NCBI GenBank assembly: GCA_026393855.1
Contig: JAPKZJ010000068.1
Coordinates: 1 to 64,000 of the forward strand
Length of the DNA stretch: 64,000 nt
Direction of reading: 5' to 3'
DNA from: Candidatus Aminicenantes bacterium
GTDB taxonomy: Bacteria; Acidobacteriota; Aminicenantia; Aminicenantales; UBA4085
Part shown: piece after piece, positions 33,892 to 39,225 of the stretch
Position numbering within the stretch: the first letter of the stretch is position 1
Layout of the letters: each line of letters starts with the position of its first letter
Translations under genes and position numbers: made by a program
Notes under the pieces: generated by a model
The model's database searches: none
Seen by the model: the letters and a program-made list of their open reading frames with translations, nothing else
What the model was told of the DNA's origin: nothing

Positions 33892-34404
33892 ATGCGCAGC
33901 TTCTTCCGTCGGCGGGCGGGTTTCACCCTCGCCGAGATGACGGTGGCGGCGGCCATCCTGGCCATCCTGGCCGGGGCCGCCCTGCCGTTGGCCAAGACGG
34001 CCGTCAAGCGGGAGAAGGAGATCGAGCTGCGGCGCAGCCTGCGGGAGATTCGGGAGGCCATCGACGCCTACAAGAAGATGGCCGACGAGAAGAAGATCGA
34101 GGTCGGCGAGGCCAAGGACGGCTACCCGCTGACCCTGGATGTCCTGGTCAAGGGCGTCAAGCTTCTGGCCGCGACCCAAGCCGCCGGCCCGACGGCCGGG
34201 CGTTCCGAGGGCAAGGGCGAGGGCCGGATCATCAAGTTCCTCCGCCGCATTCCCGTCGATCCCATGACGGGGACCGCGGTTTGGGGGCTGCTTTCGTCCC
34301 AAGACCCGCCGGACGCGACGACCTGGGGCGAAGAAGATGTCTACGACGTCTACACCCGGGCCCGCGGCACGGCCATCGACGGGACCAAGTACAGGGACTG
34401 GTGA
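33892..34404 (+). CDS. Type IV pilin-like / pseudopilin protein 1
   Basis: A 170-residue prepilin. The short basic leader MRSFFRRRAG is cut before FTLAEMTV by prepilin peptidase, with Glu at position 5 of the mature protein, followed by the hydrophobic helix AAAILAILAGAALPLA. The globular part has helical repeats and the IPVDPMTGTAVWG segment shared with the next two genes, which resembles the calcium-loop region of GspG-type pseudopilins. AAGGAGG precedes the ATG. The genes form a trio with no secretion ATPase, platform protein or peptidase nearby. Confidence 0.88.
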   Translation: MRSFFRRRAGFTLAEMTVAAAILAILAGAALPLAKTAVKREKEIELRRSLREIREAIDAYKKMADEKKIEVGEAKDGYPLTLDVLVKGVKLLAATQAAGPTAGRSEGKGEGRIIKFLRRIPVDPMTGTAVWGLLSSQDPPDATTWGEEDVYDVYTRARGTAIDGTKYRDW

Positions 34405-34417
34405 TAACGGGGGACTC

Positions 34418-34810
34418 ATGCGGGAAAAAGGCTTCACCCTGATCGAGATGATCATCGTCTTTACCATGATCGGGATCCTGGTCGGCCTGGCCCTGCCCCA
34501 GTTCAAGAACGCCGCCACTAAGGCCCGCGAATCCACGCTCAAGGAAGACCTCTTCACGATCCGCAAGCTCATCAGCCAGTATTTTACCGACAAGTCCAAG
34601 TACCCCTCGTCCCTGCAGGCTCTCGTCGACGACGGCTACCTGCTCAAAAAGCCGGTCGACCCGATGACCGGCAGCGCCGACACCTGGATCGAGGTGAGGG
34701 AAGAGCCCAAGGCGGACGAGATCGAGCCTGGATACGTCCCCGGCATCACCGACGTCCACTCGGGCTCCGAACGGGTCGGCCTGGACGGAACGGCCTACAA
34801 CACCTGGTGA
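34418..34810 (+). CDS. GspG-like pseudopilin protein 2
   Basis: A 130-residue prepilin with leader MREKG and mature start FTLIEMIIVFTMIGILVGLA, keeping Glu5, then KARESTLKEDLFTIRKLISQ and KKPVDPMTGSADTW, all as in major pseudopilins (GspG) of type II-like systems. ATG 34418 is chosen because it gives a standard leader. It lies 13 bp after protein 1, and its stop overlaps the start of protein 3 (TGATG). Its length and compactness make it the best candidate for the major subunit of a pseudopilus. Confidence 0.88.
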   Translation: MREKGFTLIEMIIVFTMIGILVGLALPQFKNAATKARESTLKEDLFTIRKLISQYFTDKSKYPSSLQALVDDGYLLKKPVDPMTGSADTWIEVREEPKADEIEPGYVPGITDVHSGSERVGLDGTAYNTW

Positions 34811-35391
34811 TGAAACGCCAAGCCGGATACACCTTCATCATCCTGATGGCCATGATCACGGTCCTGGCCATCGGCCTGCTGGCCGCGGTGCCGGTCTGGA
34901 AGACCCAGATCCAGCGCGAAGCGGAGGAGGAGCTCATCTTCCGGGGGCGGCAATATGTCGAAGCCGTCCGGATCTATCAGATCAAAAACCCGGGCAAGTT
35001 CCCGGCCTCGATCGATGACCTGATCAAAGCCCGCTGCCTCCGCAAGCCTTTCCCTGATCCCATGACCCGCGACGGCAAATGGGACTTGATTCTGCAGGCC
35101 GATTCCGCATCCGGAGGAAACCAGGCTTCCTCGGGACGCGGGGCTGCCGCTCGCACCGGACAAGGGACCAGTGCGGCGGGCCGTCCCGCCGTCAACCGCA
35201 TCTTCGTGGTGCCCCAGGAATCGGTAAGGTCGGTGGAGAACGCCCGCATCCTCGGCGTGGTCAGCCGCTCGACCAAGACTTCACTGCGCATCTACAACGA
35301 CCGGGATACCTACGACGCCTGGCTGTTCTTTTACGGCCAGAGCCCGGACTCGGAGCCGGAAATCATCCGCTTCGGACGGACCGATAAATGA
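34810..35391 (+). CDS. Pseudopilin-like protein 3 without Glu5
   Basis: A 193-residue protein with leader MKRQAG and mature start YTFIILMAMITVLAIGLLAA. Position 5 of the mature form is Ile, not the Glu that pairs with the incoming subunit in most pilins. Loss of Glu5 is characteristic of tip proteins such as GspK. The rest includes EEELIFRGRQYVEAVRIYQ and FPDPMTRDGKWDLI, shared with the trio, and a Gly/Ser/Ala-rich insert. ATG 34810 overlaps the previous stop; GTG 34807 is an alternative. lpxB starts within its stop (ATGA). Confidence 0.8.
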   Translation: MKRQAGYTFIILMAMITVLAIGLLAAVPVWKTQIQREAEEELIFRGRQYVEAVRIYQIKNPGKFPASIDDLIKARCLRKPFPDPMTRDGKWDLILQADSASGGNQASSGRGAAARTGQGTSAAGRPAVNRIFVVPQESVRSVENARILGVVSRSTKTSLRIYNDRDTYDAWLFFYGQSPDSEPEIIRFGRTDK

Positions 35392-36551: not shown

Positions 36552-37295
36552 TCAGCGGGTTCGCGGCAGTTGGGGCAGGATATCCCGTTCGGCCCGCCGG
36601 AAATCGTCGATGGTGTCGATCTCGATGGCCAGCGCGTCGCCGATGTCGACGGCCATGATCGTGCCCCCGGCGTCGATCATGGCCTGGAAGGCGGCTTCGT
36701 AAAAGACGTTGACCTGGCCCTCGGCCACGACCTTGCGCTCCATGGCCGCGAACAGCCGTTCCATGGCGGCAGGAGAGAAAACCTCGATCCCGATCGATTC
36801 CCCCGCGGCCAAGTCCGGCGGCACATGCTTGCCGATCATCCGCACATGCATGAGGTCGTCGACCTCGACCTTGATCTCCTCCTCCCCCAGCTCGCGCCCG
36901 GTCTTGACGGCCAGCCCGGCCGGAGCGTCCGCCCCCAGCACGGCCGGAAGAACGGAGGGGTCGAAGAGGATGTCGCTGTCGAGAAGCACCATACCTTCCC
37001 GCCGGACCGCTTCGCGGGCCAGCCAGAGGGAGTAGATGTTATTGGTGGAGGCGTAAACGTCATTGCGGATGAAGGTCGTCTTCAAGCCGGCATGATTCGC
37101 CCCGACATAGCGGCGGATCTGGTCTTCCAGGTAGCCCGTGACGATGACGATGTCGCGGATGCCAGCCGCGGCCAGGTTGTCGAGGGTTCGGCCAAGCAGA
37201 GTGCTGCCGCCGAGCGGAAGCAGGCATTTCGGCGTGGCGTCGGTCAGCGGCCGCAGCCGCGAGGCGATCCCGGCGGCCAGGATGACGCCCTTCAT
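36552..37295 (-). CDS. Nucleotidyltransferase of the phosphocholine cytidylyltransferase (LicC)-like type
   Basis: A 247-residue GT-A-fold nucleotidyltransferase: MKGVILAAGIASRLRPLTD with the nucleotide loop, PKCLLPLGG, IVIVTGYLEDQI, the metal-binding LLDSDILFDP and a C-terminal AIEIDTIDDFRRAERD. The family activates sugar phosphates or alcohol phosphates; NDVYASTNNIYSLWLAREA is characteristic of the LicC/IPCT-like group, which makes CDP-choline or CDP-inositol. Its ATG overlaps the stop of the CDP-alcohol phosphotransferase gene (ATGA), which strongly suggests that it makes the CDP-alcohol used by that enzyme. No second domain is fused. Confidence 0.85.
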   Translation of the reverse strand: MKGVILAAGIASRLRPLTDATPKCLLPLGGSTLLGRTLDNLAAAGIRDIVIVTGYLEDQIRRYVGANHAGLKTTFIRNDVYASTNNIYSLWLAREAVRREGMVLLDSDILFDPSVLPAVLGADAPAGLAVKTGRELGEEEIKVEVDDLMHVRMIGKHVPPDLAAGESIGIEVFSPAAMERLFAAMERKVVAEGQVNVFYEAAFQAMIDAGGTIMAVDIGDALAIEIDTIDDFRRAERDILPQLPRTR

Positions 37296-38176
37296 TCGAT
37301 CGAGCTCCCCTCCAGGTGGATGTCGATTCGGGCCTGGATGAGAAACAGCACGGCGGCGGCGACATTGAGGACCACGATCATCATCCAGAAATAGATGTCC
37401 ATCCGGCCAAATAGGATGGCGGCAATCAGGAGGACGATTTGGGTGGTGGATCCAAGAAACGTCCAGCCGCGCATGATGGCCTTGTTGGCGGTCCGGAAAT
37501 CAGCCGCCGCGACCCGGCGAAAGGGGCTGTCCGGCTGCCAGCGCATAGTCAGCCGCCGCTGCAGCTCCAAATAGCCCAGATAGAAGCTGATGAACGAGCG
37601 GCGGATCGAATGCCGACCCGAAGCGCGCAGGCCTTCCCTTTCGACCTTAAAGCTATGGTAATCCTCGTTCTCGTATGCGGGGAAGCCGTTGACCACGTTG
37701 AGGAAGCGGTTGCGGTAGTAATCGATGAGCATGGAGTGGAAGACGTTGCTGGCCACGGCGGCCGCCATCAGGAGCCACCAGCGGCCGTCCTTCCAGCCCT
37801 CCGGCTGCAGGCCCATGGCGACGCCGAGGTAGACCGCGAATCCGGTGATGTAGTCCACCAGGCCGTCCAGCAGCCGGCCCATCCGGGTGCCGTTCTTCTT
37901 CAATCGGGCCAGCTGGCCGTCGGCGCAATCCAGGATGACCGACCCGGCGTAGAGCAGGGCGCCGGCGATGACAACATCACGATTGCCGAGCCCGAAGCAT
38001 ACCCCGGCCGCGACACCCACCGAAATCGAGAAGAGGGTGATCTGGTTGGGCGTGGTCTTGGTCCTGTAGATGGCCTTGACCAGGAGATACGCCAGCGGCC
38101 GGAAGAGATAGAGATCGAAAATCTCCTCGACCTCAACCATCTTGAGGGACCGTTTGAAGTCCGCAAATAGGCTCAC
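37292..38176 (-). CDS. CDP-alcohol phosphatidyltransferase-family membrane protein
   Basis: A 294-residue membrane enzyme. The complete signature D-x2-D-G-x2-A-R-x8-G-x3-D-x3-D is present as Asp83, Asp86-Gly87, Ala90-Arg91, Gly100, Asp104 and Asp108. About six helices follow, with a soluble segment around residues 160-230. Such enzymes transfer a phospho-alcohol between a CDP-alcohol and a lipid or polyol. Start GTG 38176 overlaps the stop of the aminotransferase-like gene (GTGA), and its stop overlaps the nucleotidyltransferase start. The three genes are therefore translated as a unit. Confidence 0.92.
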   Translation of the reverse strand: MSLFADFKRSLKMVEVEEIFDLYLFRPLAYLLVKAIYRTKTTPNQITLFSISVGVAAGVCFGLGNRDVVIAGALLYAGSVILDCADGQLARLKKNGTRMGRLLDGLVDYITGFAVYLGVAMGLQPEGWKDGRWWLLMAAAVASNVFHSMLIDYYRNRFLNVVNGFPAYENEDYHSFKVEREGLRASGRHSIRRSFISFYLGYLELQRRLTMRWQPDSPFRRVAAADFRTANKAIMRGWTFLGSTTQIVLLIAAILFGRMDIYFWMMIVVLNVAAAVLFLIQARIDIHLEGSSIE

Positions 38177-39225
38177 CGCAGTCTCTTCTCCGCGGCGAAG
38201 GCGGCCAGGGCGGCGGCCAGGGCCTGATTCTGTTCGCGGGTGCCGATGGTGATCCGGACGCAGTAGTCCAGGAACGGCTCGTTCTTGAAGAACTTGATGA
38301 TCAGGCCTCGCTTGGTCAGGTCGTCTTTGAGGGCGTCTTTTTGGGCGGGCGGGATGTCCGCCAGGATGAAGTTGGCGTTGGACCGATAGGCCTTGAAACC
38401 GGGGATGCGGTTGATCTCCCGGTAGAGCATCTCCTTGTCCTCGATCATCCGGGCGCTGATGCCATTGTAATATTCGGGCGAGTCGAGGGCGGCCAAGGCC
38501 AGCCGTTCGGAAAGCCTGTTGTAGCCCAAATAGCGGGCGCTGAACTGGGCCAGCTGGGTCAGGCCGCGGCCCATGAAGGCATAGCCGATGCGGATCCCGG
38601 CCATGGCGAAGAACTTGGAGAAGGTCCGGATGATGATCAGGTTGGGGAAGTCGTTGATCAACTCCTTGACATAGTTGGTCCGGGTGCCGCCGAAGCCCCA
38701 ATAGGCCTCGTCCAGCACCACAATGCTGCCGACGAGCTCGTGCAGGACCCGGCGCAGGTCGGCCGTTTCGAGCGAGTTGCCGGTCGGATTGTTGGGTGAG
38801 CTGATCAGGACGACCCGGGGGCCGTGTTGGCGGGCCAGGCGGAGCAGCCCGTCCACGTCGTAGACGAACGAGTCGGGACCCGGGAGCATGGGGTACTCGA
38901 CCGTGAACCCGCCCTTCTCGGCAGCGATGGCCTTGTAGTACCACCAGGAGTGGGTCGGGATCATGATCGTGTCGCCCTTGGCCAGGTAGCAGTGGACGGT
39001 CTGCTTCAGAAGATCCTCCCCGCCGTAGCCGAGCAGGACGATGGATTCGGGGACACCGTATTCCTTGGCCAGCCGCTCCGACAGGGAGCTCTTGACGCCG
39101 CGGGCGAAATCCTTGGAATACCAGCTCATCTGCTCGAGAGTGGCGGTCCGGAGGACTTCGTAGCAAGCCGGAGCCGGGCCGTAGTTGTTCTCGTTGCGGT
39201 CCAGATAGATAATGTCTTGGGCCAA
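38173..39225 (-). CDS. PLP enzyme of the HisC/CobD fold (aminotransferase or phospho-amino-acid decarboxylase)
   Basis: A 350-residue fold-type I PLP enzyme of the class I/II aminotransferase group. YLDRNENNYGP opens it, SPNNPTG lies at 143-149, DEAYWGFGG at 172-180 and the PLP lysine is Lys204 in RTFSKFFAMAGIRIGY. HisC and the L-threonine-phosphate decarboxylase CobD share this pattern. No other histidine or cobalamin genes are near. It starts a three-gene unit with a CDP-alcohol phosphotransferase and a nucleotidyltransferase, so decarboxylation of a phospho-amino acid to an amino-alcohol phosphate is a reasonable hypothesis. Start TTG 39225 has GGGAGAGAG upstream. Confidence 0.85.
   Translation of the reverse strand: MAQDIIYLDRNENNYGPAPACYEVLRTATLEQMSWYSKDFARGVKSSLSERLAKEYGVPESIVLLGYGGEDLLKQTVHCYLAKGDTIMIPTHSWWYYKAIAAEKGGFTVEYPMLPGPDSFVYDVDGLLRLARQHGPRVVLISSPNNPTGNSLETADLRRVLHELVGSIVVLDEAYWGFGGTRTNYVKELINDFPNLIIIRTFSKFFAMAGIRIGYAFMGRGLTQLAQFSARYLGYNRLSERLALAALDSPEYYNGISARMIEDKEMLYREINRIPGFKAYRSNANFILADIPPAQKDALKDDLTKRGLIIKFFKNEPFLDYCVRITIGTREQNQALAAALAAFAAEKRLR

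Follow-up and report, generated by a model that had tools for sequence, protein, structure and literature searches.

Three overlapping genes of a Candidatus Aminicenantes bacterium encode a PLP enzyme, a CDP-alcohol phosphotransferase (CDP-AP), and a LicC/PntC-like nucleotidyltransferase (NTP), and this trio probably forms a head-group operon in which the PLP enzyme and the LicC-like enzyme make a CDP-amino-alcohol that is passed to a lipid. Ethanolamine is the favoured head group, and serinol is its live rival. For the full assignment (ethanolamine from phosphoserine as the reaction, CDP-ethanolamine as the donor, and diacylglycerol as the acceptor, all of which we infer), we put the probability slightly short of even. 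The window, i.e., the whole analysed stretch of 64,000 nucleotides of contig JAPKZJ010000068.1, belongs to a 3.7-Mb draft genome of 144 contigs that is 95% complete (G000). The initial annotation had proposed a path from the PLP enzyme through an amino-alcohol phosphate and a CDP-amino-alcohol to a lipid. This logic is supported except for the exact decarboxylase step, and it is backed by (i) conservation of the operon; (ii) fusion of the PLP enzyme and NTP in close relatives; (iii) a single CDP-AP lineage that is interchangeably accompanied by either supply; and (iv) the finding that phosphatidylserine decarboxylase (Psd), a PssA-type CDP-AP, and histidinol dehydrogenase (HisD) were not found in G000. 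These observations were computed here together with the gene set and its motifs.

The trio lies on the minus strand and is transcribed in the order PLP enzyme, CDP-AP, NTP. The HisC/CobD-superfamily PLP enzyme (350 residues; positions 38,173–39,225), the proposed source of the amino-alcohol phosphate, starts at a TTG codon behind the sequence gggagag. The CDP-AP (294 residues; 37,292–38,176), which would place the head group on a lipid, starts at a GTG codon, and the CTP-type NTP (247 residues; 36,552–37,295), the candidate maker of the CDP-amino-alcohol, starts at an ATG codon. The 4-bp overlaps reported initially are read directly in the sequence: GTGA (38,173–38,176) spans the PLP stop and the CDP-AP start, and ATGA (37,292–37,295) spans the CDP-AP stop and the NTP start. 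Elsewhere in the window, between pnp and lpxB (33,892–35,391), 3 successive short genes encode prepilin-like N-termini (GFTLAEM, GFTLIEM, and GYTFIIL); these genes also occur in the relatives' loci L165 and L169.

The CDP-AP carries the complete D-x2-DG-x2-AR-x8-G-x3-D-x3-D motif (DCADGQLARLKKNGTRMGRLLDGLVD), as had been noted earlier, and passes the Pfam profile PF01066 (2.5e-13). The catalytic residues D83, D86, G87, A90, R91, G100, and D104 are invariant across 31 homologues, and the protein is a member of the lipid head-group enzyme family. Its closest fold is AF2299, and in profile comparison it resembles inositol-type synthases. The NTP passes PF12804 and PF00483; its top PDB match is LicC (1jyk, 1e-17), which agrees with its earlier description as LicC-like, followed by PntC (6pd1, 1e-13), and it retains the catalytic residues of the LicC/PntC family.

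The resemblance of the NTP to PntC and LicC and that of the CDP-AP to inositol-type synthases could also point to a phosphonolipid or to an inositol or sugar head group, and a CDP-inositol route with an NTP, a CDP-AP, and Kennedy-like logic has been proposed in Bacteroidetes (Heaver 2022; PMC9246714). However, that route uses an inositol phosphate synthase and no PLP enzyme, and an inositol or sugar route would leave the PLP enzyme of the trio without a role; moreover, G000 has separate PIPS-like (inositol-phosphate-synthase-like) and DIPPS-like CDP-APs on its contigs C71 and C108. In the phosphonate tailoring of Treponema denticola, PntC-AEPT joins a LicC-like cytidylyltransferase to a PLP enzyme (PMC6697681), but there the PLP component is an AEP transaminase of class V, and the pathway requires PEP mutase. 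No match to PEP mutase (PF13714) was found in G000, and the phosphonolipid version was rejected for that reason. We therefore regard these head groups, taken together, as highly improbable.

The PLP enzyme had been described as HisC/CobD-like. Its place in the superfamily is upheld (PF00155, 5e-40), but it is nearer to HisC than to CobD and falls below both curated cut-offs, with 237.5 bits against the hisC profile TIGR01141 (cut-off 276.55) and 138.2 bits against the cobD profile TIGR01140 (cut-off 290.55). The closest folds to its AlphaFold model (pLDDT 93) are those of HisC, which thus ranks first by both sequence profile and fold; on this predicted model, the fold searches favour HisC over CobD and do not decide the reaction. 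In the phylogeny, the trio PLP enzymes form their own deep clade (100/100) on a long stem, which on the best tree lies outside the clade of CobD, PDB 6oux, and the fused proteins (described below), whereas a placement inside that clade was not rejected (p-AU 0.153). The invariant residues of the trio PLP family include K204 (the PLP lysine), D172, Y175, N146, R212, K311, and R324, and the motifs RNExN and SWWYY are signatures particular to it. The motifs W-[NS]-[IV]-N and G-[FLV]-[DE], common to CobD, 6oux, and the fused proteins, are absent, and at their places the family has YLGYNRLSE and KFF/KFM-NE. A lysine at the position of HisC R322 was dropped as a diagnostic because HisC 3euc also has a lysine there. 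Given the separate clade and the scores nearer to HisC than to CobD, the decarboxylation of phosphoserine or phosphothreonine by this enzyme is unsupported in the form first put forward. On another contig of G000 (C117, 319–1,147), a class I/II aminotransferase gene is apparently split over two frames.

The trio PLP enzyme is the sole HisC-like protein of G000, which has no other good HisC. The initial annotation had named a firm grouping with HisC in a genome lacking another hisC as a circumstance that would speak against a head-group pathway, and the lack of another HisC suits a reading in which the enzyme is HisC and its neighbours are unrelated. Yet no match to HisD (PF00815) was found in G000 or in its relatives G001, G002, and G005, so that the enzyme has no histidine pathway to serve; a HisC function was rejected on this basis. 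The score below the hisC cut-off and the conservation across phyla of the operon with the NTP also tell against histidine biosynthesis, which is strongly disfavoured and has, in our judgement, a nearly negligible probability.

The comparison within the window's family, for which 12 genomes were examined, revealed that the supply enzymes are exchanged in front of a constant transferase. All 12 genomes have a CDP-AP ortholog (48–71% identity to that of the window). Four of them (G000, G001, G002, and G005) have a separate PLP enzyme and NTP, and the other 8 have a fused NTP-PLP protein of ~610 residues; each genome has exactly one supply type, and none has both. The syntenic place of the trio is taken in G004 by the fused gene and the adjacent CDP-AP gene, beside lpxB and a DUF192-like gene, and in G006 and G009 both genes lie within one block with proS, pcm, and a DUF192-like gene. 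The family CDP-APs fall into one clade (100/98), and the carriers of both supply types are intermixed within it; a single clade of trio carriers was rejected on this tree (p-AU 0.0077). Species branching could not be read clearly from the proS tree (p-AU 0.263), and the number of module swaps therefore rests on the CDP-AP tree. That one CDP-AP lineage is served by both supplies argues that the CDP-alcohol they deliver is identical or almost so. The residues R13, K23, D108, E200, E225, and D227 are invariant over the separate and fused NTP forms, and the substrate-side motifs differ between them.

The fused PLP domain points to the identity of this alcohol. Among solved structures, it scored 154 bits with 6oux, 93 with CobD, and 90 with HisC, and in the phylogeny it groups with 6oux (100/99) and then with CobD (100/98). 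The structure 6oux, titled "threonine phosphate decarboxylase-like enzyme," is what we take to be SMUL_1544 of Sulfurospirillum, a serine-phosphate decarboxylase. SMUL_1544, a distant CobD homologue of norcobamide synthesis, was proposed to make ethanolamine phosphate (PMC4585668), and Cj1436 of the Campylobacter jejuni capsule pathway yields ethanolamine phosphate by decarboxylation of serine phosphate (PMC12409886). The grouping with 6oux, combined with the chemistry of Cj1436, makes ethanolamine the favoured head group. Both systems resemble the trio in having a PLP enzyme proposed or shown to yield ethanolamine phosphate; they differ in that their product goes to the cobamide loop or to a capsule amide and that of the trio would go to a lipid, and in that the fused relative groups with 6oux and the PLP enzyme of the window does not.

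An aminopropanol head group would arise if the PLP enzyme, like CobD, decarboxylated L-threonine-O-3-phosphate and the resulting aminopropanol phosphate were placed on the lipid. The two enzymes share a superfamily, and CobD is the textbook precedent for threonine-phosphate decarboxylation. Against this, the CobD score of the trio enzyme is far under the cut-off (138 versus 291 bits), the swap partner, the fused PLP domain, groups closer to 6oux than to CobD, and we know of no aminopropanol phospholipid; we consider aminopropanol improbable.

In the ethanolamine reading, the PLP enzyme would decarboxylate O-phospho-L-serine to ethanolamine phosphate, the LicC/PntC-like enzyme would, as its family suggests, join this product with CTP to form CDP-ethanolamine, and the CDP-AP would move phosphoethanolamine to a lipid, most likely diacylglycerol, which would yield phosphatidylethanolamine (PE) without phosphatidylserine. 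The whole would be a Kennedy-like head-group operon supplied by central metabolism. It would share with the CDP-ethanolamine branch of the eukaryotic Kennedy pathway a CTP-activated alcohol phosphate followed by CDP-AP transfer to lipid, and a CDP-AP with an intact motif does lie inside the same operon. It differs in that the phospho-alcohol would come from the PLP enzyme instead of ethanolamine kinase, which is not encoded in the trio operon, in that CTP activation would fall to a LicC/COG1213-type cytidylyltransferase, and in that the CDP-AP resembles AF2299/PIPS more than CEPT1. Our literature searches, which covered open-access papers, found no description of the trio; the parts of this phosphatidylserine-independent, PLP-fed route are of known kinds, and their combination was not found described there. 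If this reading is correct, de novo synthesis of an aminophospholipid in some bacteria starts from a soluble phosphate and bypasses phosphatidylserine, the supply has been assembled in at least two versions before one membrane transferase, and genomes in which Psd is not found gain a testable aminophospholipid route.

The usual route to PE, whose presence was part of the second circumstance that the initial annotation had named against the pathway, was not found in G000. No match to Psd (PF02666) was obtained in G000, G001, G002, or G005, and Psd is absent from 11 of the 12 family genomes, although for G000, a 95%-complete draft, the absence is not proof. G000 has 5 CDP-APs, namely that of the trio, PgsA, a ClsA/PgsA-like protein, and the PIPS-like and DIPPS-like proteins; none of the 5 is of the PssA type (the PssA search was confined to CDP-APs). 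The DIPPS-like gene of G000 is accompanied by a second nucleotidyltransferase gene and no PLP enzyme gene (L164, 5,389–6,780, on C108); the same pair occurs in G004 (L177, 5,773–7,981, on C25), where a short-chain dehydrogenase gene adjoins it.

Beyond the family, 80 related loci from several phyla were located through the nucleotidyltransferase. In about 70 of them, the PLP gene lies at most 1.2 kb from the NTP gene, and 23, from Aminicenantes, Ignavibacteria, Calditrichota, and some Bacteroidota, have the order PLP enzyme, CDP-AP, NTP. The arrangement of the trio is thus not due to chance. Psd is present in 21 of the 23 trio genomes searched, nearly all of which are outside the window's family; the trio product is therefore not needed there as the sole PE source, and a general replacement of Psd by the trio was rejected. 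The initial suggestion of a route that operates instead of phosphatidylserine decarboxylation accordingly agrees with G000 but fails outside the family. Of the 34 genomes with the PLP-NTP pair, 2 have a 6oux-type NTP/PLP set in addition, which suggests two products there. In the ignavibacterial genome G022, which holds a window-type trio and Psd, a second kind of trio (L191, 637–3,244) lines up a separate NTP, a PLP enzyme of the 6oux/CobD type, and a CDP-AP that resembles PssA/archaetidylserine synthase.

The coexistence of the two sets and the frequent presence of Psd suggest a product other than ethanolamine, for which serinol is a candidate: the HisC-like PLP enzyme would transaminate dihydroxyacetone phosphate (DHAP) to serinol phosphate, the NTP would form CDP-serinol, and the CDP-AP would make a serinol phospholipid. 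In the substrate of HisC, the keto carbon is next to CH2-OPO3, and DHAP has the same geometry; this fits an enzyme whose nearest relative by score and fold is HisC. On the other side, one CDP-AP lineage works with either the PLP enzyme and NTP or the 6oux-type fused protein, in exact complementarity in 12 of 12 genomes, and to our knowledge no natural serinol glycerophospholipid is known. A precedent for the reaction is Cj1437, the neighbour of Cj1436 in C. jejuni, a DHAP aminotransferase that yields serinol phosphate (PMC12409886); like the trio enzyme in the serinol reading, it is a PLP enzyme that acts on a C3 phosphate, in its case for surface polymer synthesis, and the likeness concerns the described reaction only. 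We regard serinol as unlikely but as a serious contender. A lower, though still appreciable, probability is given to the more specific version in which the trio makes CDP-serinol from DHAP for an undescribed serinol phospholipid and close relatives swapped to an ethanolamine lipid by exchanging the supply enzymes only.

Behind the PLP-NTP pair, gut Bacteroidota often have LicD (PF04991) and in some cases a CDP-glycerol-type transferase (PF04464, Glyphos_transf), and in some Prevotella a diverged CDP-AP stands beside the pair. One supply pair before three kinds of transferase is as expected of a CDP-small-alcohol donor. The pair before LicD resembles the Lic pathway (LicA-LicC-LicD) through its LicC-like NTP, with the PLP enzyme in the place of the choline kinase LicA; the ethanolamine reading, if correct, would also offer functions for the pair in the many gut Bacteroidota loci in which it precedes LicD. 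The use of the pair with LicD or Glyphos_transf, and the Psd of most trio genomes outside the family, which provides another way to PE, would also suit transfer of the same CDP-amino-alcohol to ceramide, a glycolipid, or another alcohol instead of diacylglycerol. However, none of the 3 Kbl/BioF-like enzymes checked in G000 reached the cut-off for serine palmitoyltransferase, and the CDP-AP is of the lipid head-group family; we assign such an acceptor a small probability. One surface-glycan-like cluster (L059, 921–7,632) contains a fused NTP-PLP gene, a separate PLP-NTP pair, LicD, and CDP-glycerol-type transferases. In the Prevotella loci L090 (4,901–8,924) and L091 (4,919–8,771), the PLP enzyme, NTP, and diverged CDP-AP are followed in the row by a multi-pass membrane protein that resembles the membrane part of YbhN/lysyl-PG synthase.
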